Of a stretch of 64,000 nucleotides of DNA, positions 1,263 to 54,600 are shown piece after piece. How positions within the stretch are numbered: position 1 is the first letter of the stretch; every line of letters begins with the position of its first letter. The stretch is from Bolinopsis microptera (Eukaryota > Ctenophora > Tentaculata > Lobata > Bolinopsidae). Location: the NCBI RefSeq assembly GCF_026151205.1, contig NC_087076.1, positions 7,480,902 through 7,544,901 of the forward strand, in the 5' to 3' direction. Both the position numbers and the translations under genes were made by a program. The notes below the pieces were generated by a model. That model did no database searches. It saw nothing but the letters and a program-made list of their open reading frames with translations, and was not told the origin of the DNA.

Positions 1263-1975
1263 AGGACTTGACCACCCTCCTCTAACAGAGACGCCGTGTA
1301 ATCTACAAACCCAGTGTTGGACCCGGGAGATGTAGCAAACTCTTTACTTGTCGTAAAATGGAGGGTTGAGTTTTCAGAGTAGGAGACTCTGTTGTTGAGT
1401 TTGTTGTCTTTGGTTTTTCTTATCAAATTTAGGAACTCTTTCACAAAGAGTGACTGTTGGGTAATGAAGGTATTATCAAGATTTTGTTTCTTTAATAAGA
1501 ATGACTTTTCTATCTGCTCCACCTTTCCACTTATTGAGTCTGTGAAGGCCTCTATATCCTTCTCTGCTAAATCCTTATCAAGTCTAATTCGGTACTCCAT
1601 AGACTGTTTCCACTGACGCTTTGCATCTTCAAGTGCAGCCGGAAGTTTCAAGTTAACCAGCCTCGTGAGCTTGTCCAGTTTGTCCGGAGTGGAGAGCAAC
1701 TTGCAGAGAAACCATGTATTCCGGACTTCTGGCTCGTTTGGAATGTTGTGGAGCACATACCGGTTATTCTTTACGCACTGTCTCAGTTTCTGGAGAGTTC
1801 CATGGCAGCGGGTCAGGTCGCGGTCGTTGTGAATAATCCCCTGTATGTCATCAAACAGAGTTTTGTAGTTGTCAGGGTCTACGATATCATTTTCGTAACA
1901 TTGAATTGACTCAGCTGCAATCGATTGAACTACTGATCGCGAAAAAAACATAAAAAGCAAGAAAAGTATGATCAT
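1187..1975 (-). CDS. Secreted coiled-coil-like protein of unknown function, 262 aa
   Basis: A single open exon starts with a hydrophobic signal peptide (MIILFLLFMFFSRSVVQS), followed by a mature part with four cysteines in the first half (QCYEN, TRCHG, RQCVK, FLCKL) and a charged, probably helical middle (residues about 110-190). I do not recognise a family. The final 24 or so residues (GKIARGIVDTAAIAAGDLFR onward) are encoded by the first unit of the flanking 65-bp minisatellite, and the TAG stop comes from the next unit. The start is the first ATG before the signal peptide, preceded directly by AG. It lies on the same strand as LONP1, downstream of its last visible exon, so it is either nested in a Lon intron or follows a truncated Lon. 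It could be a genuine fast-evolving secreted protein; no spliced alternative is apparent. Confidence 0.6.
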   Translation of the reverse strand: MIILFLLFMFFSRSVVQSIAAESIQCYENDIVDPDNYKTLFDDIQGIIHNDRDLTRCHGTLQKLRQCVKNNRYVLHNIPNEPEVRNTWFLCKLLSTPDKLDKLTRLVNLKLPAALEDAKRQWKQSMEYRIRLDKDLAEKDIEAFTDSISGKVEQIEKSFLLKKQNLDNTFITQQSLFVKEFLNLIRKTKDNKLNNRVSYSENSTLHFTTSKEFATSPGSNTGFVDYTASLLEEGGQVLGKIARGIVDTAAIAAGDLFRFLGK

Positions 1976-2470
1976 CTTTTATCGTGTTGGGAAAAATGAT
2001 TATGTACTGCGAGTCGAATCTGCAGATAAGGAATAAGATTCATATAAATAGAAAATTAAATAATCGAAAAATTTTAAGCTTGTGTGTGCATGCTAAGTTT
2101 CCATTACGTATCAACTTTATATTAACTTTATATCAACTTTATATCTACTTTTTACAATTTGATCTATTAGGATCATGTCATATGAATTTAGCAACAAAAT
2201 AAGTTAACTTAAAGCATATTTATTTTAATTAGTGATGGAGGTTTCAAAATGAACTTAGCACAAATTCATCATAATTTGACCACTTTAGGGGGGTGGGGGG
2301 GGGTGGGCTGACATGTCCGCTAAATGTCCTTGTCCAATGTCCTTTTTGGACTCTTTGAGAAAATGGGACATTAGCGGACCTCATTTTTGGGACTTTGGCG
2401 GACATTAAATAACTATTCAAGATGATCCTGCCAATCAGACCTAAGTTTTAACACTTCAGTAAGAGCTCAC
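1976..2470. other. A+T-rich spacer/intron with G-run and small inverted-repeat element
   Basis: No coding exon is visible on either strand. A G-rich stretch lies at about 2287-2308. Positions 2312-2406 carry an inverted pair (catgtccgctaaatgtcc at the left; its near-complement gggactttggcggacatt at the right) with a further internal copy, which looks like a short MITE or its remnant. None of the Lon exons expected after the Walker B exon is found here. Confidence 0.5.
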
Positions 2471-11477: not shown

Positions 11478-11503
11478 GGCAGATGTCTTACAACTCTACC
11501 CCT

Positions 11504-27218: not shown

Positions 27219-29507
27219 CGGATAATTAACTTCATGGCCTGTATATTTTACAGTAAGTCTGTCCATAGTTTTGGAGAATTACGCAGGGGCTGTATGAAGC
27301 AGGTCAAGCTCACGATCTGATAGCTTCAGGAGGATAAATAGGGATAATTGGTGCATCGTTTCTTTTTCACGAGATAAAAACGAAATATTATGGAATATTG
27401 ACTTTTGTTATGTGTCGAATATGTTGTGTGCTGCTGTTAAAATATTTTCTGTTATAATTGTTATATCATTACATGTACTTAGTATATCGTGTTTTAACTT
27501 TCAAGGATGTGTAAATTTTAATCCTTCTTCTTTTTCTCGGAGAGTGATATGAAAATCTTGAAAAATATCTGTTAAATTTCCTTTTATAGAGGGTCAAAAA
27601 GTAAATATTTTTATAAATGGGTTTAATGTTTATTTCTTAAACTAATTTGTGGCACTTTGTGGTATTTAGCCACAAAAAGGAATCAACGTATCTGAAACAG
27701 TTCAACAGTGGCTACTTTTGATATCTAATTGCCGTACACATATATCGTTAATTTCTGTTAAATATTTAATAACCCGTCTGCAAAGCTGCAGAATTAGTAA
27801 AATAACACCTCTCACATTTAATGCTACCCGACCAATGTATAGAGCACAGATGCAGCCTCAAACATAATTATTCGCACTGCATAATTAATAATTACCATAC
27901 AAAACTATGAGATGTCGTCAGCAAATTTGGACTGGAGTTGTTTAAAAAGAGGACAGACAGTGCAACCATCTCATCTCATGTCGATGACAAATACAACAAT
28001 ATCTGTTAACAGATACTGCTGCGTTTACCTCCAGTAACCACATTTGTTTTGGCTTTCAGGATACGTTCTTAAATTTCCACAGAATAATAATGTACAGCGC
28101 TGTACTCTTCAAAATAAGTACTGTCCCTTAATACTTATTGTAGCTACCGTGAGAGCAGTTCATTCGTAAAATATTCACTTAAATCGTGCAGTATTTGTTT
28201 AGACTTAAAGCTTAAATTACTTTATTTTAAAATCACGCTTTGGTCCTTAAATGTTATACATGATTACTTAGTTTGATTCACGCGGGACTACCATGATCTA
28301 ATACTTGGAATTTAATTATTTAACTATCAAGATAAACGTCCAAGTTTATAGATAGTCTTTCGTAAGGTATAAAGTTCTAAGGCGGTTATTTGAACCGCGG
28401 CTGAGTCTGGTATAAGTGAGACAAATATTAATTTCAATATTTGTGTCGAATTATAATTGTTAATTTTTGATGATGTTGTTATGTTTAAGTTGCTTATTGT
28501 AGCAACACAATTTGTTCTATGTGAAACAGTTTGTATTATGGCAATTAACGAAGATCGTATTCAGTCGAAGTAACCAAACTTCTACCCGTGCAATATGATG
28601 GTCAGTGACTGAAGGTATTGGTTTTGCAACTTGTTCTAAAAGTTTCGTATTTTGCAGCTTTTAGAACTCCCATATTGGGAAACGCAATAGCTTGTAACGT
28701 TACCGTGACACGTGGTATCACGTGGTGACACACGTGATGAAGTGTCGTCATGGTAACGGGACAAGATTCTTCTTTGTCACGTACTGCGTCAGAAGGTTTC
28801 TTTGTTGATGCTGACTTTTTTGTATAGAATAACTGAATATCTCTTGGCGTTTTACTGCATTCTTGAAATATATTCCGGAATTTTATTTGCCACATTCACG
28901 ATAGTCATTAGTCATACATATTTATCCAAGCACGTCACAGTTGAATAAATACGCCCCACCCAAAAATAGACCACAGAACTGCTGTTTTAAGGAAAAGCCG
29001 ACAATTAGTTTAATTATCCAATTATAAAGCTAATAATATTCCTCCGGAACTATCTTCCAATTTGCATCTCAATATAGAGCAAGGAGTTACCAGTCGAATA
29101 ATAGTGACATCACTAATATCACGACTACTTATTACGAAAGTTACCGGACGTAAAATTTACTTTTCCCAGTATTTACCGCTACAAATTTAGACTTCTGTGA
29201 TACCCTTTGTTATAACAGAGATAAAGTACAATACCCACTACTACTACCACTACGGTACCTCTTAAATCATACTGAAGATGTATTTATTGAAGAGTGTTCT
29301 TAAAAATAAACTGCGCACAAAAGCTAACGGAACTGTCATTGTCTAGCTGCTGCACAGGCTTCTCTCTGCACAGTTACACTTCAGCACTGTCCTTCACATA
29401 AGTCCTTCACAGTAACAGCTCATTACCACAGCTGAAGTGCTCCTGAAGTGAAAGGAATAGCGCTAGGAGCAATGTTCACACAAATAGCGGTGTGTAAAGA
29501 TGTACTT
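27219..29507. other. Region downstream of Vav without recognised gene
   Basis: A+T-rich sequence probably including the rest of the Vav 3' UTR. A minus-strand frame at 28602-28895 has some charged, coding-like composition (KTPRDIQLFYTKKSASTKK) but no family match and no splice support. Short inverted cacgtg-type motifs occur at about 28705-28740. Confidence 0.45.
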
Positions 29508-30046
29508 ACAGCGACTAATAACTGTAGTGGAGAGAGGAGAGGTAAACTTCAGAGCGTGCTGCAGTTTACCAAACTATCCACATTACAGCGACTAATAACT
29601 GTAGTGGGGAGAGGAGAGGTAAACTTCAGAGCGTGCTGCAGTTTACCAAACTATCCACATTACAGCGACTAATAACTGTAGTGGGGAGAGGAGAGGTAAA
29701 CTTCAGAGCGTGCTGCAGTTTACCAAACTATCCACATTACAGCGACTAATAACTGTAGTGGGGAGAGGAGAGGTAAACTTCAGAGCGTGCTGCAGTTTAC
29801 CAAACTATCCACATTACAGCGACTAATAACTGTAGTGGGGAGAGGAGAGGTAAACTTCAGAGCGTGCTGCAGTTTACCAAACTATCCACATTACAGCGAC
29901 TAATAACTGTAGTGGGGAGAGGAGAGGTAAACTTCAGAGCGTGCTGCAGTTTACCAAACTATCCACATTACAGCGACTAATAACTGTAGTGGGGAGAGGA
30001 GAGGTAAACTTCAGAGCATGCTGCAGTTTACCAAACTATCCACATT
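29508..30046. repeat. 77-bp minisatellite, 7 copies, hairpin-forming unit
   Basis: Unit acagcgactaataactgtag..., period 77. Seven nearly identical copies; the first has tggagagagg where the others have tggggagagg. Each unit contains ggtaaact and agttta cc as complementary 8-mers separated by 14 bases, so it can fold. Confidence 0.95.
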
Positions 30047-33682: not shown

Positions 33683-36420
33683 GGTTACGAAGAAATAACT
33701 TGTACACTCTCAGTACCATCCAATATGTTGAACTTACTTTATTTAATCCTTATCGATAAGATAGGCAACTGGTACTGTGGGCTCGCAACAAATATAATTA
33801 TTCTGTTATGTGATTAGTTAATTATTTGAAATTCTATTCAAAATAACAGTTAGTTTGTGTGTTTGTCAGTGCTTTTATACATCACATGTAAACTCAGGTA
33901 ATGTAAGTGTATCAAGTGCCACTTCTGTTGCCAGAGAAGCGCTTTTCTTCAGAGTTCAAAATTACTACACATAAAATGAATAAAGTAGTAAAATGAACGT
34001 AGTAAAGCTTGTAAAACTTCAAAATATATGGAATTACATCCTTTTATTAAATTTGTGGTTAAAACGACGTAAGAACCGTATAATTGGATATCCATGTTAC
34101 TATCTGGTATTGGTTAACATGATAGTGGTCTACAAAGTATTTCTGACGTTTTCAAAAGCTCTCTGTTTTAATTGATTAACAAATAACACAGAATGTACTG
34201 CTTTAAAAAAATTGCCCAACTTTGCTTTACATGTAAAAGTACCCTATCGTCGCCAAACTTGGCAACACGCCAGAAAGTAATTATCACCCTAACAGTTCAC
34301 ACTTCATCAGTTTGCGGTATTTAAATTCTTGTAAGAAGAATGGAGCACACCGAAATGACGGACAGTACCTCATTGGTAAGACACGGAACATGTTGTAATT
34401 ATACCTTGGATTAAATTACTGGATAATAATCCGACTGTTTGTTCAGTGTTGTTGGAATGTTCAGTATGTGATAGTCTGGCGTCTGAGATCCTTGGTCTGG
34501 TGTTCTTTGTGTACTAATCATGATGTGCACTGTGTGCAGACTGCAGTTGTGTACTTGGTGTCTGGGAAGAGGAGTTATTTTGTTATTTTCTGAAACAAAA
34601 CTTTACTTTTTTACTCAACTTTAGTCTTAATGTTGCTCGGTTTACCAATTACTGTGGGGGTCGTTAGTAAGACATAGTACTGTGCAATGTGTGCTCGTTA
34701 ATATGGAGTGTGTTCGTTATACGCGTGTAGTATTTTAGAAGTTAAGCTGCATACTTTTTAAATAGTTACTTGTGTCCGGCCACATTCTTGCAAGTAAGCA
34801 CTTATTAGTTTTCATGTGCGAAATCCGGGAATTATTCAGACAGCTGATTCTGATCTTCACAGATAAAATATCATGGTGGTTTGGGTCTGTCGAGGAACTG
34901 TGTTAATTACAGGGTGTAATTAGGACTGGTGCCATGACTTTACACGTCTCCCATTCAGACTATTATATAATCATGGTATTGTGACACACGGTCTTGACAT
35001 GTTTACCACTGATGCTGGGTATGGAGAATACTCGCTCTCTGTAAAATGTTAGTAAACAGTTTGGAGATTTGAGAAATTCCATATACCATGACAGTGGAAA
35101 TATTAGAGGCTTTCTTGTTTATATCCGTGTACATAGTTTCAAGATTCACGCTTGCTTGTGTGTCTTAGGTGATAAAATAACGTCAATTTAAAATCTACGA
35201 CTTCTTCTGGTTTGGTTATTTTGATCAGAACAGTTTCCAAATTGTAAAAGTAAATAAACAAGTAACTGTGGAACATAACATATTATGAAGGTGATGATTT
35301 CTCGCTCCTGATAGTTTAATCCGTCATCAGGGACCTACTACTATACTGTTAACATACTGAGTGTTGGATGTCTAGTGGGTCGTATATTTCACTAGACATT
35401 TAATTAGACTTCAGGCTCTCCGTTTTAAGAGCAGTAATTCTAACATTTATAACACCTCCCATTTAAGAAGCTGTCCATGTGTGTTCTCCTAAAATATACA
35501 GTGTGTACAATAACAGAAGATGTAATACCATGTGTTGTAATCAGAAGTTAGACCCGGTAATTTTACCAAACGTTACCATCAAATATCAAATAGTCGGAAT
35601 TACGGAAATGCAGTAAATTGTTGCGCTAATTGTGTGCCTTGTATTAAGATGCTTGTGAAAAGTAACTGAAGGGCTACAGTATTTGCTATTATTAGAAAAC
35701 CTCGTTTATGATGAGAAGTGCTTGTTCCAGTTTTCCAGCTTCCTGGTTACGTTGTTTCTTTTTTTCCGGATTACCGACCAGATTTTCTAGTGTTGAGTTC
35801 TTCTTCGTGGTATGACTGATAACTGATTGACAAACTCCAGATTTGTTTGCTCTTTGATGACATAATGAACACAAATGGGTATCCGGTACGCGAAAATTAT
35901 CTGAAAATTTGCTACTGCTTAGAGCGTGCCTGCGCGCGGCCGCCAACGTTACTTTTTACTAGCAAAATTTGGACAAAATTGTATTGCGAGTTAGAAGCTT
36001 CAACATTTACAAGCTCTTAATTGAATTTTAATTGGATAATTAAACTAATTACAGCTGTCATTATACTAAAATGAAATCAAGCTTCATTTTCTTCTTGTTT
36101 TCAACCTCATCAACACCCACACTTGGATCATATCACACTGTTTCGCTATTTTCTCCTCGCAGTTTTCCACCTTCGTCCAGCACGAAGCCATACTTTTGAT
36201 TTTCTCTTGTGAAACCCAAGTTATCTATAATTCTTTTCATCGCCTGCTGTTATTTAACGATGATTATCGACAACAATTGTTATTAAATCGCAATGCATCT
36301 GTCATTGAACTTGTCATCAATGGATTGCAGTACTGTAGATAAGAAATAGGTTCATATTTCTCGCTCGTCCGCAGTCCGCTCCATTTCAATTATCGTTGAA
36401 GGTACAGTTCTTGAGTTCAC
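33683..36420. other. Gene-poor spacer upstream of the WDR44 satellite
   Basis: Mostly featureless A+T-rich DNA. The only candidate coding material is the pair of minus-strand fragments at 35692-36249, given separately. Any WDR44 promoter would lie here or further left, because the array occupies the 6 kb next to exon 1. Confidence 0.4.
35692..36249 (-). other. Possible unidentified minus-strand gene fragments
   Basis: A minus-strand frame at 35692-35946 reads as a basic protein with a CxxC-like pair (THLCSLCHQRANKSGVCQS) and a charged end (GNPEKKKQRNQEAGKLEQAL), but its ATG is absent: the frame opens with TTG after an in-frame stop, so an upstream exon would be needed. Upstream, 36249 down to about 36135 encodes a short frame with coding-like composition (MKRIIDNLGFTRENQKYGFV, LDEGGKLRGENSETV) that ends in TGA. 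I could not join the two with a good donor and acceptor, and I recognise no family. They may be exons of an unknown gene or a decayed copy. Confidence 0.25.
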
Positions 36421-36430
36421 AACTTCCGGG

Positions 36431-36660
36431 CTATACCATGTAATTACCACAGTCTTTGGCTAATTTCTGTTTTGCACTGTTCTGTTTTCTTGATATGTCG
36501 TTAAAATCCAGGACTATAATTTACCAATTGTATCTCCGTTATAGGCTGCATGTCTGGTAGTAATGTAGCCTGTTTAATTTAATAACTATACCATGTAATT
36601 ACCACAGCCTTTGAGCTAATTTCTGTTTTGCACTTTTTTTCGTTAAAATTCAGGACTATA
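36431..36660. repeat. Left border of the WDR44 satellite: two diverged longer units
   Basis: The block ctataccatgtaattaccac to caggactataatttac occurs twice (starting at about 36432 and 36586), each time followed by the tatctcygttataggctgc acceptor module. This longer sequence is absent from the rest of the array. It probably preserves the original DNA upstream of the acceptor before the 58-bp core was amplified. Confidence 0.75.
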
Positions 36661-39600
36661 ATTTACTAATTATATCTCTGTTATAGGCTGCATGTCTGGT
36701 AGTAATGTAGCCTGTTTAATTTACTAACTATATCTCCGTTATAGGCTGCATGTCTAGTAGTAATGTAGCCTGTTTAATTTACTAATTATATCTCCGTTAT
36801 AGGCTGCATGTCCGGTAGTAATGTAGTAGCCTGTTTAATTTACTAATTATATCTCCGTTATAGGCTGCATGTCTGGTAGTAATGTAGCCTGTTTAATTTA
36901 CTAACTATATCTCCGTTATAGGCTGCATGTCTGGTAGTAATGTAGCCTGTTTAATTTACTAATTATATCTCCGTTATAGGCTGCATGTCTGGTAGTAATG
37001 TAACCTGTTTAATTTACTAACTATATCTCCGTTATAGGCTGCATGTCTGGTAGTAATGTAGCCTGTTTAATTTACTAATTATATCTCCGTTATAGGCTGC
37101 ATGTCTGGTAGTAATGTAGCCTGTTTAATTTACTAAATATATCTCCGTTATAGGCTGCATGTCTGGTAGTAATGTAGCCTGTTTAATTTACTAATTATAT
37201 CTCCGTTATAGGCTGCATGTCTGGTAGTAATGTAACCTGTTTAATTTACTAATTATATCTCCGTTATAGGCTGCATGTCTGGTAGTAATGTAGCCTGTTT
37301 AATTTACTAACTATATCTCCGTTATAGGCTGCATGTCTGGTAGTAATGTAGCCTGTTTAATCTACTAATTATATCTCCGTTATAGGCTGCATGTCTGGTA
37401 GTAATGTAGCCTGTTTAATTTACTAACTATATCTCCGTTATAGGCTGCATGTCTGGTAGTAATGTAACCTGTTTAATTTACTAACTATATCTCTGTTATA
37501 GGCTGCATGTCCGGTAGTAATGTAACCTGTTTAATTTACTCATTATATCTCCGTTATAGGCTGCATGTCTGGTAGTAATGTAGTCTGTTTAATTTACTAA
37601 ATATATCTCCGTTATAGGCTGCATGTCTGGTAGTAATGTAACCTGTTTAATTTACTAAATATATCTCCGTTATAGGCTGCATGTCCGGTAGTAATGTAAC
37701 CTGTTTAATTTACTCACTATATCTCCGTTATAGGCTGCATGTCTGGTAGTAATGTAGTCTGTTTAATTTACTAACTATATCTCCGTTATAGGCTGCATGT
37801 CTGGTAGTAATGTAGCCTGTTTAATTTACTAACTATATCTCCGTTATAGGCTGCATGTCTGGTAGTAATGTAGCCTGTTTAATTTACTAAATATATCTCC
37901 GTTATAGGCTGCATGTCTGGTAGTAATGTAACCTGTTTAATTTACTAAATATATCTCCGTTATAGGCTGCATGTCTGGTAGTAATGTAGCCTGTTTAATT
38001 TACTAAATATATCTCCGTTATAGGCTGCATGTCTGGTAGTAATGTAGCCTGTTTAATTTACTAAATATATCTCCGTTATAGGCTGCATGTCTGGTAGTAA
38101 TGTAGCCTGTTTAATTTACTAATTATATCTCCGTTATAGGCTGCATGTCTGGTAGTAATGTAGCCTGTTTAATTTACTAATTATATCTCCGTTATAGGCT
38201 GCATGTCTGGTAGTAATGTAGCCTGTTTAATTTACTAACTATATCTCTGTTATAGGCTGCATGTCTGGTAGTAATGTAGCCTGTTTAATTTACTCACTAT
38301 ATCTCCGTTATAGGCTGCATGTCTGGTAGTAATGTAGCCTGTTTAATTTACTAATTATATCTCCGTTATAGGCTGCATGTCTGGTAGTAATGTAGCCTGT
38401 TTAATTTACTAATTATATCTCCGTTATAGGCTGCATGTCTGGTAGTAATGTAGCCTGTTTAATTTACTCACTATATCTCCGTTATAGGCTGCATGTCTGG
38501 TAGTAATGTAGTCTGTTTAATTTACTAATTATATCTCCGTTATAGGCTGCATGTCTGGTAGTAATGTAGCCTGTTTAATTTACTAACTATATCTCCGTTA
38601 TAGGCTGCATGTCTGGTAGTAATGTAACCTGTTTAATTTACTAACTATATCTCCGTTATAGGCTGCATGTCTGGTAGTAATGTAGCCTGTTTAATTTACT
38701 AACTATATCTCCGTTATAGGCTGCATGTCTGGTAGTAATGTAGCTTGTTTAATTTACTAATTATATCTCCGTTATAGGCTGCATGTCTGGTAGTAATGTA
38801 ACCTGTTTAATTTACTCACTATATCTCCGTTATAGGCTGCATGTCTGGTAGTAATGTAGTCTGTTTAATTTACTCACTATATCTCCGTTATAGGCTGCAT
38901 GTCCGGTAGTAATGTAGTCTGTTTAATTTACTAATTATATCTCCGTTATAGGCTGCATGTCTAGTAGTAATGTAGCCTGTTTAATTTACTCACTATATCT
39001 CCGTTATAGGCTGCATGTCTAGTAGTAATGTAGCCTGTTTAATTTACTAAATATATCTCGTTATAGGCTGCATGTCTGGTAGTAATGTAGCCTGTTTAAT
39101 TTACTAAATATATCTCCGTTATAGGCTGCATGTCTGGTAGTAATGTAGCCTGTTTAATTTACTCACTATATCTCCGTTATAGGCTGCATGTCTGGTAGTA
39201 ATGTAGCCTGTTTAATTTACTAACTATATCTCCGTTATAGGCTGCATGTCTGGTAGTAATGTAGCCTGTTTAATTTACTAATTATATCTCCGTTATAGGC
39301 TGCATGTCTGGTAGTAATGTAGCCTGTTTAATTTACTAACTATATCTCCGTTATAGGCTGCATGTCTGGTAGTAATGTAGCCTGTTTAATTTACTAACTA
39401 TATCTCCGTTATAGGCTGCATGTCTGGTAGTAATGTAGCCTGTTTAATTTACTAACTATATCTCCGTTATAGGCTGCATGTCTGGTAGTAATGTAGCCTG
39501 TTTAATTTACTAACTATATCTCCGTTATAGGCTGCATGTCTGGTAGTAATGTAGCCTGTTTAATTTACTAACTATATCTCCGTTATAGGCTGCATGTCTG

Positions 39601-42600
39601 GTAGTAATGTAGCCTGTTTAATTTACTAACTATATCTCCGTTATAGGCTGCATGTCTGGTAGTAATGTAGCCTGTTTAATTTACTAACTATATCTCCGTT
39701 ATAGGCTGCATGTCTGGTAGTAATGTAGCCTGTTTAATTTACTCACTATATCTCCGTTATAGGCTGCATGTCTGGTAGTAATGTAGCCTGTTTAATTTAC
39801 TAACTATATCTCCGTTATAGGCTGCATGTCCGGTAGTAATGTAGCCTGTTTAATTTACTAACTATATCTCCGTTATAGGCTGCATGTCTGGTAGTAATGT
39901 AGCCTGTTTAATTTACTAACTATATCTCCGTTATAGGCTGCATGTCTGGTAGTAATGTAGCCTGTTTAATTTACTAACTATATCTCCGTTATAGGCTGCA
40001 TGTCTGGTAGTAATGTAGCCTGTTTAATTTACTAACTATATCTCCGTTATAGGCTGCATGTCCGGTAGTAATGTAGCCTGTTTAATTTACTAACTATATC
40101 TCCGTTATAGGCTGCATGTCTGGTAGTAATGTAGCCTGTTTAATTTACTAACTATATCTCCGTTATAGGCTGCATGTCTGGTAGTAATGTAGCCTGTTTA
40201 ATTTACTAACTATATCTCCGTTATAGGCTGCATGTCTGGTAGTAATGTAGCCTGTTTAATTTACTAACTATATCTCCGTTATAGGCTGCATGTCTGGTAG
40301 TAATGTAGCCTGTTTAATTTACTAACTATATCTCCGTTATAGGCTGCATGTCTGGTAGTAATGTAGCCTGTTTAATTTACTAACTATATCTCCGTTATAG
40401 GCTGCATGTCTGGTAGTAATGTAGCCTGTTTAATTTACTAACTATATCTCCGTTATAGGCTGCATGTCTGGTAGTAATGTAGCCTGTTTAATTTACTAAT
40501 TATATCTCCGTTATAGGCTGCATGTCTGGTAGTAATGTAGCCTGTTTAATTTACTAATTATATCTCCGTTATAGGCTGCATGTCTGGTAGTAATGTAGCC
40601 TGTTTAATTTACTAATTATATCTCCGTTATAGGCTGCATGTCCGGTAGTAATGTAGCCTGTTTAATTTACTAATTATATCTCCGTTATAGGCTGCATGTC
40701 TGGTAGTAATGTAGCCTGTTTAATTTACTAATTATATCTCCGTTATAGGCTGCATGTCTGGTAGTAATGTAGCCTGTTTAATTTACTAACTATATCTCCG
40801 TTATAGGCTGCATGTCCGGTAGTAATGTAGCCTGTTTAATTTACTAATTATATCTCCGTTATAGGCTGCATGTCTGGTAGTAATGTAGCCTGTTTAATTT
40901 ACTAATTATATCTCCGTTATAGGCTGCATGTCTGGTAGTAATGTAGCCTGTTTAATTTACTAATTATATCTCCGTTATAGGCTGCATGTCTGGTAGTAAT
41001 GTAGCCTGTTTAATTTACTAATTATATCTCCGTTATAGGCTGCATGTCTGGTAGTAATGTAGCCTGTTTAATTTACTAATTATATCTCCGTTATAGGCTG
41101 CATGTCTGGTAGTAATGTAGCCTGTTTAATTTACTAACTATATCTCCGTTATAGGCTGCATGTCTGGTAGTAATGTAGCCTGTTTAATTTACTAACTATA
41201 TCTCCGTTATAGGCTGCATGTCTGGTAGTAATGTAGCCTGTTTAATTTACTAATTATATCTCCGTTATAGGCTGCATGTCTGGTAGTAATGTAGCCTGTT
41301 TAATTTACTAACTATATCTCCGTTATAGGCTGCATGTCTGGTAGTAATGTAGCCTGTTTAATTTACTAATTATATCTCCGTTATAGGCTGCATGTCTGGT
41401 AGTAATGTAGCCTGTTTAATTTACTAATTATATCTCCGTTATAGGCTGCATGTCTGGTAGTAATGTAGCCTGTTTAATTTACTAATTATATCTCCGTTAT
41501 AGGCTGCATGTCTGGTAGTAATGTAGCCTGTTTAATTTACTAATTATATCTCCGTTATAGGCTGCATGTCTGGTAGTAATGTAGCCTGTTTAATTTACTA
41601 ATTATATCTCCGTTATAGGCTGCATGTCTGGTAGTAATGTAGCCTGTTTAATTTACTAATTATATCTCCGTTATAGGCTGCATGTCTGGTAGTAATGTAG
41701 CCTGTTTAATTTACTAATTATATCTCCGTTATAGGCTGCATGTCTGGTAGTAATGTAGCCTGTTTAATTTACTAACTATATCTCCGTTATAGGCTGCATG
41801 TCTGGTAGTAATGTAGCCTGTTTAATTTACTAATTATATCTCCGTTATAGGCTGCATGTCCGGTAGTAATGTAGCCTGTTTAATTTACTAATTATATCTC
41901 CGTTATAGGCTGCATGTCTGGTAGTAATGTAGCCTGTTTAATTTACTAATTATATCTCCGTTATAGGCTGCATGTCTGGTAGTAATGTAGCCTGTTTAAT
42001 TTACTAATTATATCTCCGTTATAGGCTGCATGTCTGGTAGTAATGTAGCCTGTTTAATTTACTAATTATATCTCCGTTATAGGCTGCATGTCTGGTAGTA
42101 ATGTAGCCTGTTTAATTTACTAATTATATCTCCGTTATAGGCTGCATGTCTGGTAGTAATGTAGCCTGTTTAATTTACTAACTATATCTCCGTTATAGGC
42201 TGCATGTCTGGTAGTAATGTAGCCTGTTTAATTTACTAATTATATCTCCGTTATAGGCTGCATGTCTGGTAGTAATGTAGCCTGTTTAATTTACTAATTA
42301 TATCTCCGTTATAGGCTGCATGTCTGGTAGTAATGTAGCCTGTTTAATTTACTAATTATATCTCCGTTATAGGCTGCATGTCTGGTAGTAATGTAGCCTG
42401 TTTAATTTACTAATTATATCTCCGTTATAGGCTGCATGTCTGGTAGTAATGTAGCCTGTTTAATTTACTAATTATATCTCCGTTATAGGCTGCATGTCTG
42501 GTAGTAATGTAGCCTGTTTAATTTACTAATTATATCTCCGTTATAGGCTGCATGTCTGGTAGTAATGTAGCCTGTTTAATTTACTAATTATATCTCCGTT

Positions 42601-42694
42601 ATAGGCTGCATGTCTGGTAGTAATGTAGCCTGTTTAATTTACTAATTATATCTCCGTTATAGGCTGCATGTCTGGTAGTAATGTAGCCTGTTTG
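36661..42694 (+). repeat. 58-bp satellite built from the WDR44 exon-1 boundary, 104 units
   Basis: From ttataggctg at 36681 to the same motif at 42657 there are 5976 bp, that is 103 periods of 58 plus one 3-bp insertion (gtagtagcctg, about 36825) and one 1-bp deletion (atctcgtt, about 39057). One further unit lies left at about 36539. Each unit reads tactaac/t/a or tactcac, tatatctccgttatag, gctgc, atgtctggtagtaatgtagc, ctgtttaattt. The last unit is the functional WDR44 exon-1 start. Units between about 36700 and 39100 mix several variants (gtagcctg, gtaacctg, gtagtctg). Those from about 39100 rightward are nearly uniform and grouped into actaac-rich then actaat-rich blocks. Confidence 0.97.
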
Positions 42695-45600
42695 ATACCA
42701 GATAGAGATAGCGATAGCTCAGACGATGAGTTCCTAGACGCCTTAGATGCAATCGAAAACGAGCCGGAACTTGAGTATGCGGAAAATGTGAATTCAGGTT
42801 TGTTAGTAGTGTGCAATTTTGCAGCACACTGTGACATACCAATGACATTCTTTTCATTCCATCTCGTTATGTTCAAGGTTAATTTTATTAAAATTCCCGA
42901 ATGTTCTAAAGAATTTAATTTACACAAAAATGAACATATTCATTCCTCCAGACAACAATTCAGTCGAAAGACATAGTATCGCCAGTTCGCGGAGTCAGAC
43001 AGAAGTAGAGGTAGATGGAGGGAGTGTGACGTCACCCAAGTCAGTGACGTCATCACGCTCAGCTACATCCTCACACAGCGCTCAATCCTCTTCCGCTCCA
43101 AGCACTCCATCCAGTCGACATGGGGCCCCTGCTCAGGCGCTGCCTTCAGGCACAGGTTGGTAGTTATTGTGAACACTTAGTATCAGCTGTAGCTGTCTGT
43201 ATTATGACGTGGTGTTAGGGTCTAGGGTCTGGCTTCATATAGGTTACACTTTTAGAATGAGTAGCATTGGTATGGGTAAGTTCAGTCTGGCAAGCTTTTA
43301 AATACTCTATTGTTTTCAATGCTTGTGCTTATTATGCAAGGATTTATTAGATTGACAGAATTGACTATAGGTTTCATTTCAAAATTGGTAAAATTAAAAC
43401 TGATTTTCACATCAAAATATAAACATAATGAAATTAAATAAAGAAGAAATCTTATCAATCATAAAAAGAGTCAGAACTCAGAAGTTGACGATACTCGGTT
43501 CAATACAAAATCTGGTCCCAACCTAAGAAAAGTCATATAAAATTTATCTGAATCAAATTTCTAAAAAAATCATCCCCAACTTTATTCTTCTGAATTAAAA
43601 AACGTGGGCTCATAATTAAACGCCTTCATCATATCGGCACAAACTTTTTCAATAGTTCTCCAATGAGGTTCACTAAGTTTCTTCTTCCATGCATCCAAAA
43701 TTTCACTAGATTGTCTCTCCACCCCGAAATAACCACCATCCTTCCCCCCTCTGTCTTTTACATGAGTTAAATTGTACACATATTCTTGATACTTGGCAGT
43801 GTATTTTACTCCTATGAAATGCAGCAGGTCTCTGGTCACTTGTTGCGGCGATTCTGCTAAATCCTCGAACCTGACCATTTTGTACCGTCCTTTCAGCCAG
43901 GGTGGAGGGTTCATGCCTAGTTTGTAGTTATATAGATGATGAGAACACATCCAATGAGCTGCTTCTGTCATGTACTCTTCACTGAAGCCTGCCTGTCCCT
44001 CTTTATCCGAGATATGTGCTCCTAGGTATTTATTGCCATCATATAACTCATGGAAAACGCTCATACGAGATTTTAATACTGCGCGTGGATCTCTCACTAA
44101 ATGAACAACTTTGAAATTGTCACACCCGAAATCTTGGACTTTGTACATTGTTGATATGTTATAGTATCTTATGGTTTTAGGTACCATCATGGTCTTCTCC
44201 TCCTGGCATTTTGCCATGCTTTCCTTATACTGCATCTTATACTCGGTACCTAACCGTTTGGCTTTATAACCCAAGCCCATAACTGACTGAAAATGTTTAT
44301 CTTTTTTCCCTGGTATCAACACCCCGTGCCAATCACATAAACAAATCCTCGCTAAGTAGACCTCTCTCCAATCCTTATATATTTCTGGGTCGTATCCAGC
44401 TGCAAGTGTTTCCGCTCTTATCTCATCTGAAAGAGCATACATCTTTAGGAAAGGTTGAGTGTTCAGCGGCTCAAAAACAGGGACAGCCTCGTCCCTGTTT
44501 CCCAGTATATCCATCAACCATGTTGAACCATGTCTGCTCTGGGTCAGAACTAGCACCATTTTCGGTTGCTTTGGTCGAGGTGTTGCTGGTCCATCATCAG
44601 GGGCTTCGATGTTCTCAATCGCAACAGATCTTAGCGGTACTTGCTCCGGAACATCCTTCAATGTTGGTTCATGGTTAGCAAGTTGTAATTCAGTCTCCTC
44701 GGATTTAACGTGTAATTGTTGTTGATCTGCTACTTCTGGTATTTCCACATCATCCGGCTTCTCTGGTTCCTCTGCCAGTTCAATGTTTTGTTTCTGTACC
44801 TGGTCGTCTGGAATATTGTCCTGCTGCTCGATACCTACTATCGAAGTTGCAGCTATGGGCACTGTTAAAAATGGATTGTCTTCTTCGTCGTCATCTTGGG
44901 GAACTGTTACAACTCTTCCAGTCTTTGGTTCTTCCTCTTGTTTCAAAGTTATTGAGTCTTCAGAAACTTCGTCAGCAACTTTCCGAGTACTAAACTCGTT
45001 GTAGTCTTCATCTTCACCTGATAATTGTTCGGCAGGTTGAATCATTTTAGGTTGATGTGTAACTTCCTCAGTACTAAACTCGTTGTAACCTTCATCTTCA
45101 CCTGGTATGTGTTCGGCAGGTTGAATCATTATAGGTTGATGTGTAACTTCCTCAGTACTAAACTCGTTGTAGGTATCATCTTCATCTGGTATGTGTTCAG
45201 CAGGTTGAATCATTTTAGGCTGATGTGTAACTTCCTTAGTACTAAACTCGTTGTAACCTTCATCTTCACCTGGTATATGTTCGGCAGGTTGAATCATTTT
45301 AGGCTGATGTGTAACTTCCTCTGTACTAAACTCGTTGTAGGTATCATCTTCATCTGGTATGTGTTCGGCAGGTTGAATTATTTTAGGTTGATGTATAACT
45401 TCCTCAGTACTAAACTCGTTGTAATCTTCATCTTCATCTGGTATGTGTTCGGCAGGTTTACTTATTTCAGGTTGATGTGTAGTTGGTCGAATAACGACCT
45501 CCTGAGTACTGAACTTGTCGGTATCTTCAATTGGTTCCATTTTGGGCATCAGATCCCTCAAAACACTCTGCCTTATTTGTTGACCTGCGAGTTCATCACC

Positions 45601-48600
45601 ATGTTTGTCGTTAAAATCTAGAAGTTGGGGCGTTATAGTATGCATCCTAGCAAATTCAGTAGTAGGACCGGTTTCTTGATCCAAAGTCTCCTCTATATTA
45701 GAAGTTGCAGTGCCCCTGAACAAGTCCACAATTAACTTCTCCTGCCACATTTTCTCTAGCTCCTCTAAGATAGACTGTTGATCACCAACATCGCCCGAAA
45801 CATGAGTAGAGATAGAGATAGAGGTTGAAGAGAGCAACAGTTTGAGATGAATTATCTTGTCGTGGAACATGCAGACAAGAACTAGGGTGTGAATCAGAAA
45901 GAACGCTGAAATACAGAGGAAAATGCAGCGGAAATTCATGTCAGCAGGTGATGTGAATCAGTGAGAATCCTGGAATACTGGAATCCACTCCTCCGTGGAG
46001 TAACAGCGGTAAATGTTTCAAGTCATTCCGATCATTCCATGATCATGAGAATCTGAAAAGATCTTGTTTTCAATGCAAGTAGAATATTTCGCAGTCAATA
46101 TGAAAAGAAACCATGATACAGAAATAGATTATGTTGAAGAAACATACCCCTTTTCAGTTTTCATGTGTAACACGAGTGAAAAGCTTTAAACAACATTAAA
46201 AGTTTACATAAGTGCAACAGCAGCAGGCAACACGCACTGAAGTCTGAATCATCATGCACGCTGTCGGGCTGCAATTTTCTAAATTAAAATAGTGATGTAT
46301 CGTTGGATCTCCCATGGGAAAGTAATGAAGAAGAGTAATTAAGAGCCAAGAATGTGAAGCTCATCAGATTCGTGTACACAGAGCAACTTAGGTCAAATAT
46401 ATAACTTAGACACGTTCCACGTTATGATCGAATGTTAAAATTACAGAATATTTATGACGGCTCCTACATGATACATGCGTTAAGTTAAAGCTTAAATTAT
46501 AAACCGGAAAGAATACGGCATGAACAGCGTTGTAATCAAAACTAGCCTGACTCAGCGTATACTAAGTAACTACAACCAACAATCTAATCGGTTGTTGAAC
46601 TTTGACACTTTCTGTCACTGACAGTTCTTCCCAGAACAATTACATGTTCTCCTTCACCAATCACCAAGTTGTGAACCTGACCCATGCTCAGCATTCTGAC
46701 CGTCAATTTAGCCTTTTATTTAGGTGTGTCTACTGTCTAAGAGGTGTTTTAGCCGCAGACCGCTGTCAAGTGTCAGACTACTCGAGTACTTGTTGGGAAT
46801 GTTTTGGTAATCTGAAATCCAAGTCAATTTCATGGTCTGGACAAAGTACATTCTAGAGACAATGCAAGTGTAGACCTATCTACACCTGTTGTGCAGTGTA
46901 GAATGTAGATGTTCCAGCCTTGTACTGAAGGTTGGAAGTGGTCTGGACATGCAGCTCCATTACATGGAACCTGACTGCAACTTAACAAAACGAACTGTGC
47001 ACTACAAATGTGCGGGCGTGAGGGACCCTAAAGTCTGCAGATGCTTGCCATGTGCACTACAAATGTGCGGGCGTGGGGGACCCTAAAGTCTGCAGATGCT
47101 AGCCATGTGCACTACAAATGTGCGGGCGTGAGGGACCCTAAAGTCTGCAGATGCTTGCCATGTGCACTACAAATGTGCGGGCGTGGGGGACCCTAAAGTC
47201 TGCAGATGCTAGCCATGTGCACTACAAATGTGCGGGCGTGAGGGACCCTAAAGTCTGCAGATGCTAGCCATGTGCACTACAAATGTGCGGGCGTGAGGGA
47301 CCCTAAAGTCTGCAGATGCTAGCCATGTGCACTACAAATGTGCAGGCGTGAAGGACCCTAAAGTCTGCAGATGCTAGCCATGTGCACTACAAATGTGCGG
47401 GCGTGAGGGACCCTAAAGTCTGCAGATGCTAGCCATGTGCACTACAAATGTGCGGGCGTGAGGGACCCTAAAGTCTGCAGATGCTAGCCATGTGCACTAC
47501 AAATGTGCGGGCGTGAGGGACCCTAAAGTCTGCAGATGCTAGCCATGTGCACTACAAATGTGCGGGCGTGAGGGACCCTAAAGTCTGCAGATGCTAGCCA
47601 TGTGCACTACAAATGTGCGGGCGTGAGGGACCCTAAAGTCTGCAGATGCTAGCCATGTGCACTACAAATGTGCGGGCGTGAGGGACCCTAAAGTCTGCAG
47701 ATGCTAGCCATGTGCACTACAAATGTGCGGGCGTGAACGACCCTAAAGTCTGCAGATGCTAGCCATGTGCACTACAAATGTGCGGGCGTGGGGGACCCTA
47801 AAGTCTGCAGATGCTAGCCATGTGCACTACAAATGTGCGGGCGTGGGGGACCCTAAAGTCTGCAGATGCTAGCCATGTGCACTACAAATGTGCGGGCGTG
47901 AGGGACCCTAAAGTCTGCAGATGCTAGCCATGTGCACTACAAATGTGCAGGCGTGAGGGACCCTAAAGTCTGCAGATGCTAGCCATGTGCACTACAAATG
48001 TGCGGGCGTGAACGACCCTAAAGTCTGCAGATGCTAGCCATGTGCACTACAAATGTGCGGGCGTGGGGGACCCTAAAGTCTGCAGATGCTAGCCATGTGC
48101 ACTACAAATGTGCGGGCGTGGGGGACCCTAAATTCTGCAGATGCTAGCCATGTGCACTACAAATGTGCGGGCGTGAGGGACCCTAAAGTCTGCAGATGCT
48201 AGCCATGTGCACTACAAACGTGCGGGCGTGAAGGACCCTAAAGTCTGCAGATGCTAGCCATGTGCACTACAAACGTGCGGGCGTGAGGGACCTTAAAGTC
48301 TGCAAATGCTAGCCATGTCCGACAACTTGGCTCTTACTACTTAGGAAATGATAGCTCAAAGTTCGCTTCATCGATAAAAAAATTCTGACTACGCATCACA
48401 CAAAATTGTTACTCTGACCTCAAACTGAATAAACTAAAAGAATTACTGGATACACAAGATTGCAATGTAAAATGATCGCCCAATACAGGAAGGGTATCGT
48501 GTGTATTATTGATACGTGTCCAGGTATTTTTATAATATCATATTATCCTATTTGAAGAGCGTTCCCTCCTTGGAAACATTAATCGTATTAATATGCCCTC

Positions 48601-51600
48601 TCTGCGGAGAGGGATTTTAGCACCTTAATCTAATGAACTCGGAGTCACGGTATCAAGGTGCAGAGTCTGTGACAGAGTGGTCCGTTTTAATAATTTGCAC
48701 TTTTTGTGTTAATTGAATAGCGATTAGTTCAGACTCAAATGATAATGATTATTTGGTTATTTTTTGATCTAAGGGATAGCCCCTACAATCCTGACAAGAG
48801 ATTCACAAGTATATACTGACAGAAATAACATTCATTATTTATAATAACACTATTATTACCCGAGTAGGTTTATTTGATTATTGGGTACTTGCAACATTAA
48901 CTAAATTTATATAAGCAAAGGAAAGTCAAAACTTAGTACCCAAACACCCTGATCCCTGACTTTCTAACAATTTCCCTCCACAGAACTGTCAACAGACCGT
49001 GAAATGCCCTCCAAGTTCGACCTGAACCTGGAGCTTGAGTCAGACTCGCTAGTCAGCACCCCCTCCCACATGCTCACTCCGTTCAGGACTCCGGACATGA
49101 CACCCCTCAAGGATGGCTCTAGGAATGACTCGTTCGCCTCCGCCAGGACCACCACTATGACCCCGGAGTCAGGTAACGACATGTTTCAGAATTTTAAACT
49201 TTTTAAATGGAATTTCGTTATTTCAGTGCGACATGTTGCATACATGTTGGGAATTTATCTCTACATTCTTCCCACTACCAACCATTCTGGCGTTATTTAC
49301 CTCGGTAATTTGTTATAAATAAATTACCATTCCGTTTCAGACAAGGGGGAGGACTCTAGTGTGAACGAGGTATCAGAACCTACCATCGCTGCGCCATCTC
49401 CCCCACCCAGACCACCTCAACCTTCAAGACCTCCACAACCATCAACACCATCAAGACCTCCTCAACCATCACAACCATCGAAACCACCACAACCATCACC
49501 TAAAAGTAAAACACCGGAGGTGAGGAAAACAATTTACCCATCCTCGTGGCCGGGAATGACTCCGTAATTAAAATGTGTTCCTATTTATAATCTTATAACT
49601 ATGGCAGAAACTTTACGAATAAACATGATGCTGAGAATTTTTTTAAATCAGCTACTTTTTATATCGGTAATCGGAAAATCAGTTTAAAACTGGTTTTCTG
49701 TCCCTGGTATTTCTTTCTATTCTAATATACAGTAGTGGTGAAGTACTCAAATTATTTTTCTTAAATGTGAGTTAAACTTATTGTAAAACAAATCATAACT
49801 AATTTTATTAAATTTCAGATTAGTGAAGAGGAACTACTGGCGATGATGACGATTAAATGTCTCGATACTGGTCAAACAGTAACCATGGACAAAATGGAAG
49901 AGATTCTAAAAGGTTCCTTGGCTAGTATTTAACCGTTTTAGAATTTAGAAGTATAAGTTTCTTGTCAATTTGAATATCTAATAACCAAGAGGTTCGATAA
50001 ACCTAAACTAGACATTTGGTGCTTATCTTTTAGGGCGTTTGCTATCAGATATGTTGTTGGGCATATCGAAACATTATTTGAAGTTTGAAGTTTACACCTG
50101 TAAAACTGCAAAGCCGTCATTCGAGACTGAAAACAAAACTGGTGTGTAAAAGGAATGTAATATTATAAGTGCAGTATATTAACAGGCAGGTATTACTTTT
50201 AAGTGGCCTGAAGAATTTCAATGCTTCTTAACGGGACAGAACATCTAAAATGATGTAGTCAAGTAAGGTAATACTTGTGAGAGTGTTGTCTGCCTGCTCC
50301 CACATTTTGTAAGAGAAGAAATTACATTAAATTTGCACCTTTTTCTGATTAAGTAGGGCTCTATATAATTATTGATATCTGTCATCAGGCATAACACGCA
50401 TAAAAAACTCTACGAGGCCACATATACAGCGGCTTATTTTTCTAAAAGTACTCTATTATATGGAAACCTGATAAGCTCACAGCAGTAAAAAACATATTAC
50501 TCAACTCATTACTCAATAATCAGGTGCATCGGGTGCAAATTTGTCTGAAATAAGCGCCATTTCAAAATATTATAATATTTATTGAAAATGCTATGGTTTA
50601 CTAAAAGAACTGTTAAAAGGTTTGCTGTATTTAATACGATTCTCGTACAAATTGGCACCACAATATGAAAAATAGCAGAACGCTTTCACAGCTGAGTACA
50701 GTTTGACTAAAAATACGTGACGTGCATAACATTTTTCAAGTAAGTGCCCTGTACCATTCTCAACGTGGCAAGTTGGGGTTCTATTTATAACCCGCCCTTT
50801 TAGTGAGACTTGAAATACAAAGAAATACAAAGAAGCAGCATGTAAAGAGATACAACAGAAATACCTGACAAATTCCTGCCATCGTTCAGAGTGTAAAAGC
50901 AGTGAACTCTGGGACCCCCACAGACTGGGAGTGGAGTATTGTAATTTCATGTATAGTTCAGTGGTGGCCGGCTTTCCTCTAATGAAATTTAGTAATATGG
51001 TGGAGATATTCTCTTGGAATGTTCTTGGGATGAAACATTATTTGTAAATAGAGATCATAAACTTATGCACATTAAATGTAGTGAACGTTCTCAAATAATA
51101 TTGTTAGATCAAGAATTAGCAGGCAATGTTAGTGACACAAAGACTAGTTTGCAACAAAAGGTCAAAGGGAAAATGATGGATATGTTGTATGAACCGCTCT
51201 AGACATCGTTCAGCAAGTTTAATGTTTATCATTAGTCTTGAAATCTGCACAAATTGTCCTCTCTAAATTTGTAACCATCTTATCTCGATCCATGGTTCCA
51301 ACCTCTCTGTAAACCAAATAACCCATTACCCAACCCTAAAGCTACAATGTTAACCAATGTTAACGCTACAATTTTAACGCTACAATGTTAACACTACAAT
51401 GTTAACCAATGTTAACGCTACAATGTTAACACTACAATGTTAACCAATGTTAACACTACAATGTTAACCAATGTTAACACTACAATGTTAACCAATGTTA
51501 ACACTACAATGTTAACCAATGTTAACACTACAATGTTAACCAATGTTAACAACTACAATGTTAACCAATGTTAACACTACAATGTTAACCAATGTTAACA

Positions 51601-54600
51601 CTACAATGTTAACCAATGTTAACACTACAATGTTAACCAATGTTAACACTACAATGTTAACCAATGTTAACGCTCTGCCATTTCAGATGCTGATCCTTTA
51701 TCCAAGCATTTGACGGAAGTGTACGGTTACGCAGCAGAGCATGAGAGTGACAGTGACAATAGCTCTTACATTCAAGGATCTCGTTCTACTATCGCCACTT
51801 TAGATGTATGTGAGTCTGACAGTAATGTATACAGTATACGTCATATAATGTATACACTATACATATAATGTATACATATATCTCCCTGTGAAATTGTCTC
51901 TGATTTTACCAGATTCGCACTCCATGATCATATTAATATTCCCCTTCACCTCCAGGACGAACACGGTACCAACAATCCTACAGATACCCCAAAATCCAAA
52001 ACTCGAATGAAAAATTTCGCGAAAAAAGGAATGAAAGGTATGAAAGGGATGGGAAAAGGTGTGAAGAACCTGTCTAAAAGTATGCGAGTACACAAGAAAG
52101 AGAACGAAAGTGCTGCAGAATGGGAGGTGCAAAGTGGTGACATCTCTGTCTACCCCAATTCCTCCTACAAAAACTACAAACTCGAAAATGCAAAGTATGT
52201 CTATTTTAAAGTTTGTTAAAGACCCGGACTGTAATGCATAATCTAGAAAGTTCCATGTTATACCTTGCAAGAGAGATAGCGATATCAGTTGTAAAGATAA
52301 TTAACATACGAAGATTTCGAACCCGTGTTCACAATTAGGGTGTTCATCTTAGATACTGTTTTTCTGTTTTGGTCAATTGGTCTAGAAGGTACAGTAAGAA
52401 TTTAAATTGCCAACGAGGTTAATCTCTTTGCATCAATTCAACCGTTTTCAGGTTTAACGTGATTGAGCTACAGTCAATAAACAAAGCTCACGTGAAAGCT
52501 ATCTGGGTGATGAAGATGTCCCCGGGGGGTAAGGTGCTAGCAAGCGCTGGTGATGATAAGAACATCAACATTTGGGTCCTCAAATCAGTCTGGGACAACT
52601 TCGTCGAGAAATATTATCTCAAGGTACAAAACAACATAATATATCCAATTCCGAACCAAATCATGAGGCTTGTTAACTTCCATTTCATGTTATTTTTAAC
52701 ATTTTAAAATCGTGAACTGCTTATGATCCAAATTCCGACACACAAATATTTATACTTCGGCATGTTACAGTAACATTGTTACCGTTCACTCAAACATGTG
52801 AGAATCCCTTTGAACCCGACCACATTTTACTCAGAACAAACACGACACACCCCCAACTCGCAACTCAGATGACGACGGAGGTTACTTCGAGTCAGTACCT
52901 TTCAGAGTGTTCAGAGGATCAGAGGGTCCCATTATCGATCTGAACTGGAGTAAGAAGATGTATTTCTTACTATCAGCCGGAACAGACAGGAATGTCCGGC
53001 TTTGGCACATAGCTAGGGTGAGTTGTGGTATTTGACTCTTCTTTTTACAATTATTGCATGCCTTTCCGTATATCTCTACGTATGACCGGCATCTCCGTTT
53101 TTAACTTTTTATCACGACAGGAGCTGTCGTTTATTTTAAACACTTGCGTTTTAAACTTTTAAAGATCAAAAATTTGAAACCGACGAATTTGAACGGTCAA
53201 AACTTCTTTCAAACATTCGTTTTTACTGCACACAATCTTTTAATGTCTCTCATTCCGTTGTAGCAAATCCAGATCGCATGTTTCCCCCACCCTGACGTAG
53301 TCCCGACGGTGGTATTCCACCCTCTCAGTGATGTCCTCTTTCTCAGTGGATGTCTGGATGGCCGGGTAAAACTTTGGAACATCCACGCTCGCAAGGTCCA
53401 GTCTCATTACAAGGTATGTGTGAAGAGTTTCCTTGTCTTTCATCTCATTTGCTTTGTTTTTCGGTTTTGCAGGATAAATTACTGCCTCTCTTTTTATGAT
53501 AAATTCCTTTTTCTTACATAAATGCATTTTACTTTGAATTGCTATTTTCTGAAGTCTAATAAACCTCGTCATATTTTGTCTCAATCAGTTGGAGCCCCGA
53601 AACAACAGTGACGCGCTGATAACGGCAGTTAACTTCGTGACGTACGGTAACCGTAAGGTCCGAGCATTTGTTGGAACTTACGACGGTCGAATAACCGTCC
53701 TTGACATCACGGCATCTAATACCCTCGACTATCACACAGCACTTGATATCAGGTCAGTTATATTCATGCCTATTTATTCCTCAACTTTTGGTCAAACGAG
53801 CATGGGCATTGATGTGGTAGCCTCCCGGGGGGGGGGGGGGGGGGAGGGGGGGCCGCACCCTCCCCAAACTGTTTACACATTCCTTATCCCTTGATAACTC
53901 GTCTCACGACTTTGTGCCCCAGATCTTTTACCCCATAGCCAGCTTTTGCCCCTCAATCAGTCTTGCTAAAATTGACTTTAGACTCCTGCCTTTAGTAATG
54001 TAATTATTATGTTCAGGGGAAACAGGAGTAAGAATGCCAGGAAAATCACTAGCATAGAACAGCGGCCAAATAGCACCAACATACTCGTTACCTCCAATGA
54101 TAGCCGTATCAGACTATACGACGTTGATGTTAGTATTGCTATTATTGTTTGTTCTTTAATATCTATTTTAATCTATGAGATGACATGATAATTATTAGAT
54201 GACGAATGTCCTGATTTAGCACTTAGTGCTTGAAAGATTTAGAGCTCACGTGACCCTGTAAAGTGTAAATAATTGATTGTGTTAGTGTTTCTGAAAGGGC
54301 GAGATGCATAATCGGGGGAAAAAGGAACGAATCGGGTAAAGTAGGAGAACCAGTGAGATTTACACTGGTTCAGTGTCCATGAAATTAAAACCAAGGAATT
54401 ACATCAAGTTACAGCATATTTTTATTTGATTTTAAATGATTTAGATAATTTATTTTTTTATACAATTTTTTATTTTTATGTCAAAAACAGCTAGAAAAAT
54501 TCTCAAGAAACAAAAGCATTTGTCGATGATAAGAAACTTCAGGTTGCGTTATCGCTACTCGAAATTTATTCCAAAATTTTAGGATTAACGCCAAAAAAAG

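Follow-up and report, generated by a model that had tools for sequence, protein, structure and literature searches.

A 105-copy tandem repeat of an acceptor and start-codon border in a WDR44-like gene of the ctenophore Bolinopsis microptera: a probable counterpart of the amphioxus mirages

Tandem duplications across exon borders are known from amphioxus, where they are called mirages and have been described for the globin genes BflGb6 and BflGb9, for Adh3, and for TnC (PMC3087553). As described in that report, the BflGb6 mirage comprises the 3' end of an intron and the 5' part of exon 2, the boundaries of the cluster are exempt from homogenization, and reverse transcription-polymerase chain reaction of BflGb6 together with the Adh3 data suggested that regular splicing is undisturbed; the creation of introns was proposed there as a model for mirages. 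Undisturbed regular splicing is likewise reported for the Adh and TnC mirages (PMC3902484). The present study concerns a tandem array at the start exon of a WDR44-like gene of the ctenophore Bolinopsis microptera, in a stretch of 64,000 nucleotides (contig NC_087076.1, positions 7,480,902 to 7,544,901 of the forward strand) that is called the window and supplies the coordinates used below. The array is probably a very large mirage that is tolerated in an array-rich ctenophore genome. An initial annotation of this DNA held that no system of this kind had been described, a claim that the amphioxus mirages, acceptor side included, contradict.

The array extends over positions 36539-42693 of the plus strand and presents 105 copies of TTATAG/GCTGC ATG (the slash marks the splice site), of which the final one is authentic. 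Tandem Repeats Finder (TRF) reported a period of 58 bp and 104.0 copies at 36659-42693 (98% matches, score 11371). An exact scan of 36501-42720 for the core TTATAGGCTGCATG located 105 copies, from 36539 (first) to 42657 (last), a count that includes the authentic exon copy and one diverged, outlying first copy and that agrees with the approximate number annotated initially. Core-to-core spacing is 58 bp in 101 of 104 steps, and the other three are 142, 61, and 57 bp. The unit reads TACTAA(T/C)TATATCTCCGTTATAG/GCTGC ATG TCT GGT AGT AAT GTA GCC TGT TTA ATT, and every copy contains a branch-point-like element, an acceptor, five bases, the start codon, and the initial codons. In the authentic copy, the branch-point-like TACTAAT and the acceptor TTATAG lie at 42640-42662 (plus strand), with the AG at 42661-42662, followed by GCTGC and the ATG at 42668, as had been annotated. 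In TACTAA, which begins at 42640, the A at the sixth base is 17 nt 5' of the G in the acceptor AG, close to the approximately 18 nt given earlier. This copy diverges from the repeat after 42693, and an open frame continues to a GT donor at 42797/42798, so that the description of the repeat as a copy of the gene's own acceptor and start-codon border, with the last unit running into the coding exon, is sustained. The first, diverged unit (36518-36575, plus strand), set apart by the 142-bp spacing, forms the left edge of the array and has TACCAATTG in place of TACTAATTA. It is followed by an 84-bp stretch that resembles its upstream flank, and the two together appear to be the mark of a rearranged array edge. 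The array and both its edges are continuous in the assembly.

A genome-wide search with the array covered one assembly of 264,652,675 bases, in which contigs C1 to C13 account for 258,070,895 bases (97.5%) and the largest has 26,206,493. At least 49 matches were obtained, a lower bound, and all are located at C5:7517418-7523661, rather than at the many unrelated loci that would have spoken against a link with the gene. Anonymous satellite DNA was rejected as an explanation since the array was found at one locus only. No further copy of the first coding exon, such as a retrocopy, was found elsewhere in the genome, no exact match to a 22-base piece of the array was present among viral contigs, and Rfam models at gathering scores had no match in the window. 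When the 22 inferred exon borders of the gene were compared for local copies (at most 4 mismatches in 30 nt), 103 were found at the array border and none at the other 21; a chance origin of the border copies is therefore out of the question. A close local 30-nt copy was present in 12 of 60 random control windows, a measure of the region's repeat richness. The unit thus spans a border, as inferred from the sequence, is local to that border, and carries splice signals, as mirages do. What the sequence shows is a single locus found, the identity of the authentic border with the consensus, and the presence of an acceptor, an ATG, and a stop in each unit.

To score the repeated acceptors, a matrix was built from sites of the gene that were identified visually by open frames and GT/AG (11 acceptors, 10 donors). 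A clear site was lacking, and none was called, for the donor of either exon that begins at 51687 or 52452, for either end of an exon at about 51960-52200, and for everything past 58244. The score is 4.1 in 101 units, 3.4 in 3, and 5.2 in 1. By comparison, the leave-one-out range of the 11 inferred acceptors is -2.1 to 11.5, with a median of 4.0, and 11.4% of the window's 3293 other AGs reach 4.1. The repeated acceptors therefore look ordinary, neither decayed nor strong, and nearly all are identical to the authentic one; as first proposed, each unit retains a usable-looking acceptor. The upstream ATGs open an upstream open reading frame (uORF) of 11 codons in 93 of 104 units and of 10 to 22 codons in the rest. 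An open frame across the array was rejected, since all 104 upstream ATGs reach a stop after 10-22 codons and none continues past the array. Most GTs of the unit are poor donors: CTG/GTAGTA is equalled or bettered by 60.8% of 3687 other GTs, CCG/GTAGTA scores -2.0, and AAT/GTAGCC scores 1.2.

Variation among the units is ordered along the array. In successive blocks of 15 units, mean pairwise differences are 2.5, 2.19, and 4.03 (units 0-44, where the first and third values are each raised by one indel unit, with a 3-bp insertion and a 1-bp deletion, respectively) and then 0.51, 0.78, 0.42, and 0.27 (units 45-104); such likeness between neighbors was reached in no more than 3 of 2000 shuffles. 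The final unit matches the consensus at every base. Because the left part is diverse and the exon side almost uniform, the array looks oldest at the left, with the latest spread or homogenization beside the exon. About a dozen distinct changes occur among the units, too few independent changes for selection on the invariant core, an idea that was dropped.

The unit also has the potential to form a hairpin. In the authentic copy, ATAGGCTGCAT and ATGTAGCCTGT (42659-42691, plus strand) can form 11 pairs, including G-U, in a structure that takes in the AT of the start codon together with the AG of the acceptor. All 11 pairs are kept in 95 of 105 units, one is lost in nine, and seven remain in one unit (the 3-bp insertion, with the same register). 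The predicted energy of the authentic region is -20.9 kcal/mol as RNA (shuffles, mean -13.7) and -6.0 as DNA (shuffles, -2.35), and 3 of 200 shuffles were as good in each case. Two uses suggest themselves from the folding, namely as a driver of expansion in DNA or as a means of hiding the acceptor in RNA, and with the acceptor AG and the first bases of the ATG held in the possible stem of nearly every unit, site choice could depend on temperature or helicases. For 12 of 40 sample arrays, no more than 10% of the unit's 40 own shuffles folded as well as the unit (about 4 expected), and for 13 of 40, no more than 10% of 40 random genomic stretches did so. An over-representation of hairpins among the arrays of this genome is suggestive only, as many units are short and have shuffles near zero energy. 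The unit of a 77-bp array at 29506-30046 of the window (7 copies, 99%), GGTAAACTTCAG...CTGCAGTTTACC, folds better than 40 of 40 own shuffles.

In the explanation that we favor, a minisatellite expanded through tandem duplications that span the 5' edge of the first coding exon, and it would be tolerated rather than selected. The spliceosome would attach either a spliced leader (in trans) or a 5' untranslated region (5'UTR) exon from upstream (in cis), mainly to the copy or the few copies beside the exon. The site would be chosen from the exon side, with the 5' splice site at 42797 pairing with the nearest acceptor to give a 135-nt exon, which every further unit would lengthen by 58 nt. Use of the nearest copies is expected, since no others would delimit a short exon together with that 5' splice site, whereas preference for the 5'-most acceptor would load the mRNA with about 6.1 kb and 104 small uORFs; the expectation is based on exon definition and on the amphioxus reports. 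The remaining approximately 100 copies would be lost when the outron or intron is removed. The array would drift in length, which is expected to vary between individuals, with little effect unless copies far upstream are used.

Several points weigh against this explanation. In BflGb6, both boundaries of the cluster are described as unhomogenized (PMC3087553), whereas here this is true of the left end only and the exon-side end is homogenized. The hairpin beats most shuffles, which a purely neutral view does not need. Each unit also contains a donor-like site, CAT/GTCTGG, with a score of 6.0 in 93 units, or CAT/GTCCGG, 5.4, in nine, and both fall within the leave-one-out range of the 10 inferred donors (5.2-10.3). 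The 14-base core is invariant in 105 of 105 units and could be read as constrained; the scan itself demands the core, and the spacings allow no missed unit except within the 142-bp step. The exon border and the use of the last unit are themselves inferences. Finally, only 1 of the 22 inferred borders of the gene is affected, so that mirages as a general feature of this genome are not implied; arrays are simply common.

The acceptor may function in trans. In the ctenophore Hormiphora californensis, at least 56% of Iso-Seq reads are reported to start with a leader ending AATTTGAG (PMC8527503). The B. microptera genome carries a spliced leader of the ctenophore type: a 29-base leader piece has 769 + 869 = 1,638 genomic matches with at most two mismatches, as compared with 0 + 0 for the reversed control, and a 14-base pattern from the leader end is modestly enriched (361 + 331 matches against 250 + 123 for the reversed control). 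Nine of the 692 14-base matches were picked by hand, eight of them representing the commonest variant in the printed list. The sequence ACTTTCAACACTACTATATAACAAATAATTTGAG, which reaches beyond the bases used for picking, is exact in four of these nine places (L033, L036, L037, and L038), and in the remaining five the upstream part of this sequence has an insertion or is changed; the Hormiphora counterpart is CTTTTCAACACTACTTTAAACAAATTAATTTGAG. A tunicate origin was considered before the ctenophore-type leader was found, and was dropped: GH6 gave no match, which is weak by itself since control genomes likewise gave none, and two matches to a presumed Ciona leader, with one mismatch each, lie in near-identical sequence at two places. 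A search for COX1 to place the organism gave no match. By analogy with the published Hormiphora data, this leader would be used in trans. The acceptor of the array and of the authentic exon may therefore be a trans-splice acceptor, because the leader is in the genome and the acceptor is only five bases before the ATG. The initial reading of the repeat as an acceptor stands, and the cis intron that it assumed is in doubt. The window yielded no copy of the leader; it has two 14-base matches, with two mismatches each, where 1.5 are expected by chance. If the gene is cis-spliced, a weak candidate for the original short intron runs from AAG/GTACAG to the AG of the first unit (36402-36544, plus strand, 143 nt); its donor (36401/36402) scores 3.9, as compared with 5.2-10.3 for the ten inferred donors. 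In our judgement, trans-splicing at this acceptor has a somewhat better than even chance, and cis-splicing is credible but falls somewhat short of even.

The sequence behind the leader differs among the nine places; the pairs L037/L038 and L032/L036 share downstream sequence, which by eye reads as open reading frames (ORFs) starting soon after the leader. These leader-bearing copies may be retro-copied trans-spliced mRNAs or leader-carrying retroelements. Two long uninterrupted ORFs on the minus strand of the window, at 9660-11495 and 5910-7847, which we take to be DNAJC2-like and zinc-finger-like, are each preceded by a pyrimidine-AG, at 24 and 51 nt from the ATG, respectively, as expected of trans-spliced single-exon genes.

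The other explanations differ in what they make of these signals. It is unlikely that many different units receive a leader or a 5'UTR exon, which would produce a 58-nt ladder of mRNAs with 0 to about 104 uORFs and would allow copy number to damp translation. The authentic-like acceptor in every unit, the short uORFs that end within the array, and the presence of a leader of the trans-splicing type in the genome favor such a ladder, but the resulting mRNAs would yield little WDR44, and the amphioxus mirages are reported without aberrant mRNAs in the accounts cited (PMC3087553, PMC3902484). Rather less likely is that the array serves as a bank of about 105 trans-splicing acceptors and start codons, in which the capped mRNAs would form a ladder with 0 to about 104 uORFs and array length, varying between individuals, would set WDR44 output. 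Long arrays are readily mis-sized in assembly, and it is improbable, though conceivable, that the assembler has made a real array shorter or longer than it is. B. microptera was assembled with wtdbg (PMC10232365), but the units differ in ordered blocks, as in real arrays, and the sequence is continuous through the array and its edges. More improbable again is a splice-site sink, in which 105 branch-point and acceptor copies per pre-mRNA would titrate splicing factors or delay WDR44 splicing and array length would tune expression. Sequence alone cannot support tuning, and an array as such calls for no function where arrays are common (79 in our sample); the regulatory role and copy-number control in the initial annotation are accordingly possibilities that the sequence leaves unsupported. 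It is highly improbable that the units are spliced among themselves to yield new exons or mini-introns of 46 or 51 nt, for although intron creation is a published model for mirages (PMC3087553) and the units offer TACTAAC/T, TATAG, and passable donors in CAT/GTCTGG and CAT/GTCCGG, it leaves a 7-nt exon lacking a whole ATG, the remaining GTs are poor, and introns so short have no precedent among those inferred for this gene.

The repeat background of the locus is substantial. In a sample of 263.9 kb, which consists of the window and 20 further stretches (four beside the window; one stretch with 2,796 N), 79 TRF arrays with scores of at least 100 make up 13.9% of the sequence; the tandem repeat content of Hormiphora has been published as 13%. 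A second array, with a 65-bp period at 1-1264 of the window, repeats the terminal codons, stop included, of a predicted 263-amino acid ORF (1187-1978, minus strand), and TTCTTGGGGAAATAG occurs 15 times in it. Because this array covers the end of another predicted gene, arrays that engulf a gene border are no isolated curiosity even within 64 kb. The predicted ORF has a signal-like start, and its stop coincides with the first junction of the repeat (65 not being divisible by 3), so that the array seems to have set its C terminus.

The first coding exon of the WDR44-like gene (42663-42797, plus strand) comprises GCTGC and the codons ATG TCT GGT AGT onward and ends at CAG/GTTTGT; the sequence at the 3' side of the authentic acceptor is GCTGCATG. 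The next inferred exon, from 42952, is in frame with it. Further inferred exons, called from open frames and splice signals, extend over 42952-58244 (plus strand) in a model that is incomplete, with a proline-rich stretch at 49341-49519 and WD40-like ORFs from 52452 (both plus strand). Pfam family PF00400 was detected in four of eight scanned ORFs (E-values 1.8e-05, 3.8e-05, 1.4e-04, and 0.014), in each case under the curated cut-off of 27 bits, and beta-propeller models match the same four; the other four, including the first coding exon, had no Pfam match. The gene fits a WD40 gene that is WDR44-like. The name WDR44, and with it the putative orthology, is taken from motifs that we presume to be characteristic: the proline-rich middle, ILVTSNDSRIRLYD, KASFSHD, and an FFAT-like DEFLDALD near the N terminus.

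Two ORFs lie on the opposite strand inside this gene and should be in its introns; numerous nested genes are described in the published account of Hormiphora. One is a sulfotransferase ORF (43585-45957, minus strand; PF00685, E 5.7e-12; PF13469, E 1.1e-11) that carries in-frame 84-bp coding repeats, and the other is a Ser/Thr-rich ORF at 54825-56321 that has no Pfam match. Within 10 kb past the right end of the window, two ORFs (L012, 3880-5445 and 8448-9998, plus strand) have ends that by eye are like those of the sulfotransferase ORF, and the three may be read as a local family.

A pre-mRNA with about 100 near-identical acceptors and start codons is a natural experiment on site choice, whether in cis or in trans, and the locus also gauges the amount of 5' clutter that a conserved gene can bear. 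If ctenophores have mirages like those of amphioxus, border-spanning minisatellites are not a lancelet speciality and provide a route for lengthening or changing introns, outrons, and leaders. If the neutral reading is true, it is a caution against inferring function from striking repeats near start codons.

The locus is thus best compared with the amphioxus mirages as published. It shares with them a minisatellite-like duplication over an exon-intron border, in BflGb6 likewise with repetition of the acceptor, as well as splice signals within the units, confinement to one gene, and concerted evolution within the array. It differs from BflGb6 in scale, with 105 units as compared with the 6 and 3 described in two BflGb6 haplotypes, and from the amphioxus mirages in that the 58-bp unit takes in the start codon, the host is a ctenophore, and the acceptor may serve trans-splicing. 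A human minisatellite was reportedly found in 1995 to provide multiple donor splice sites; judged from its title, that case also endows a transcript with numerous copies of a splice site, there a donor and here an acceptor with a start codon. As in Hormiphora californensis, the genome has a leader of the kind that ends AATTTGAG, and the short AG-to-ATG stretch suits such an acceptor (PMC8527503). A limited literature search found no published report of tandemly multiplied trans-splice acceptors. As far as that search shows, the scale, the captured start codon, the ctenophore host, and the possible trans-splicing setting are new here.

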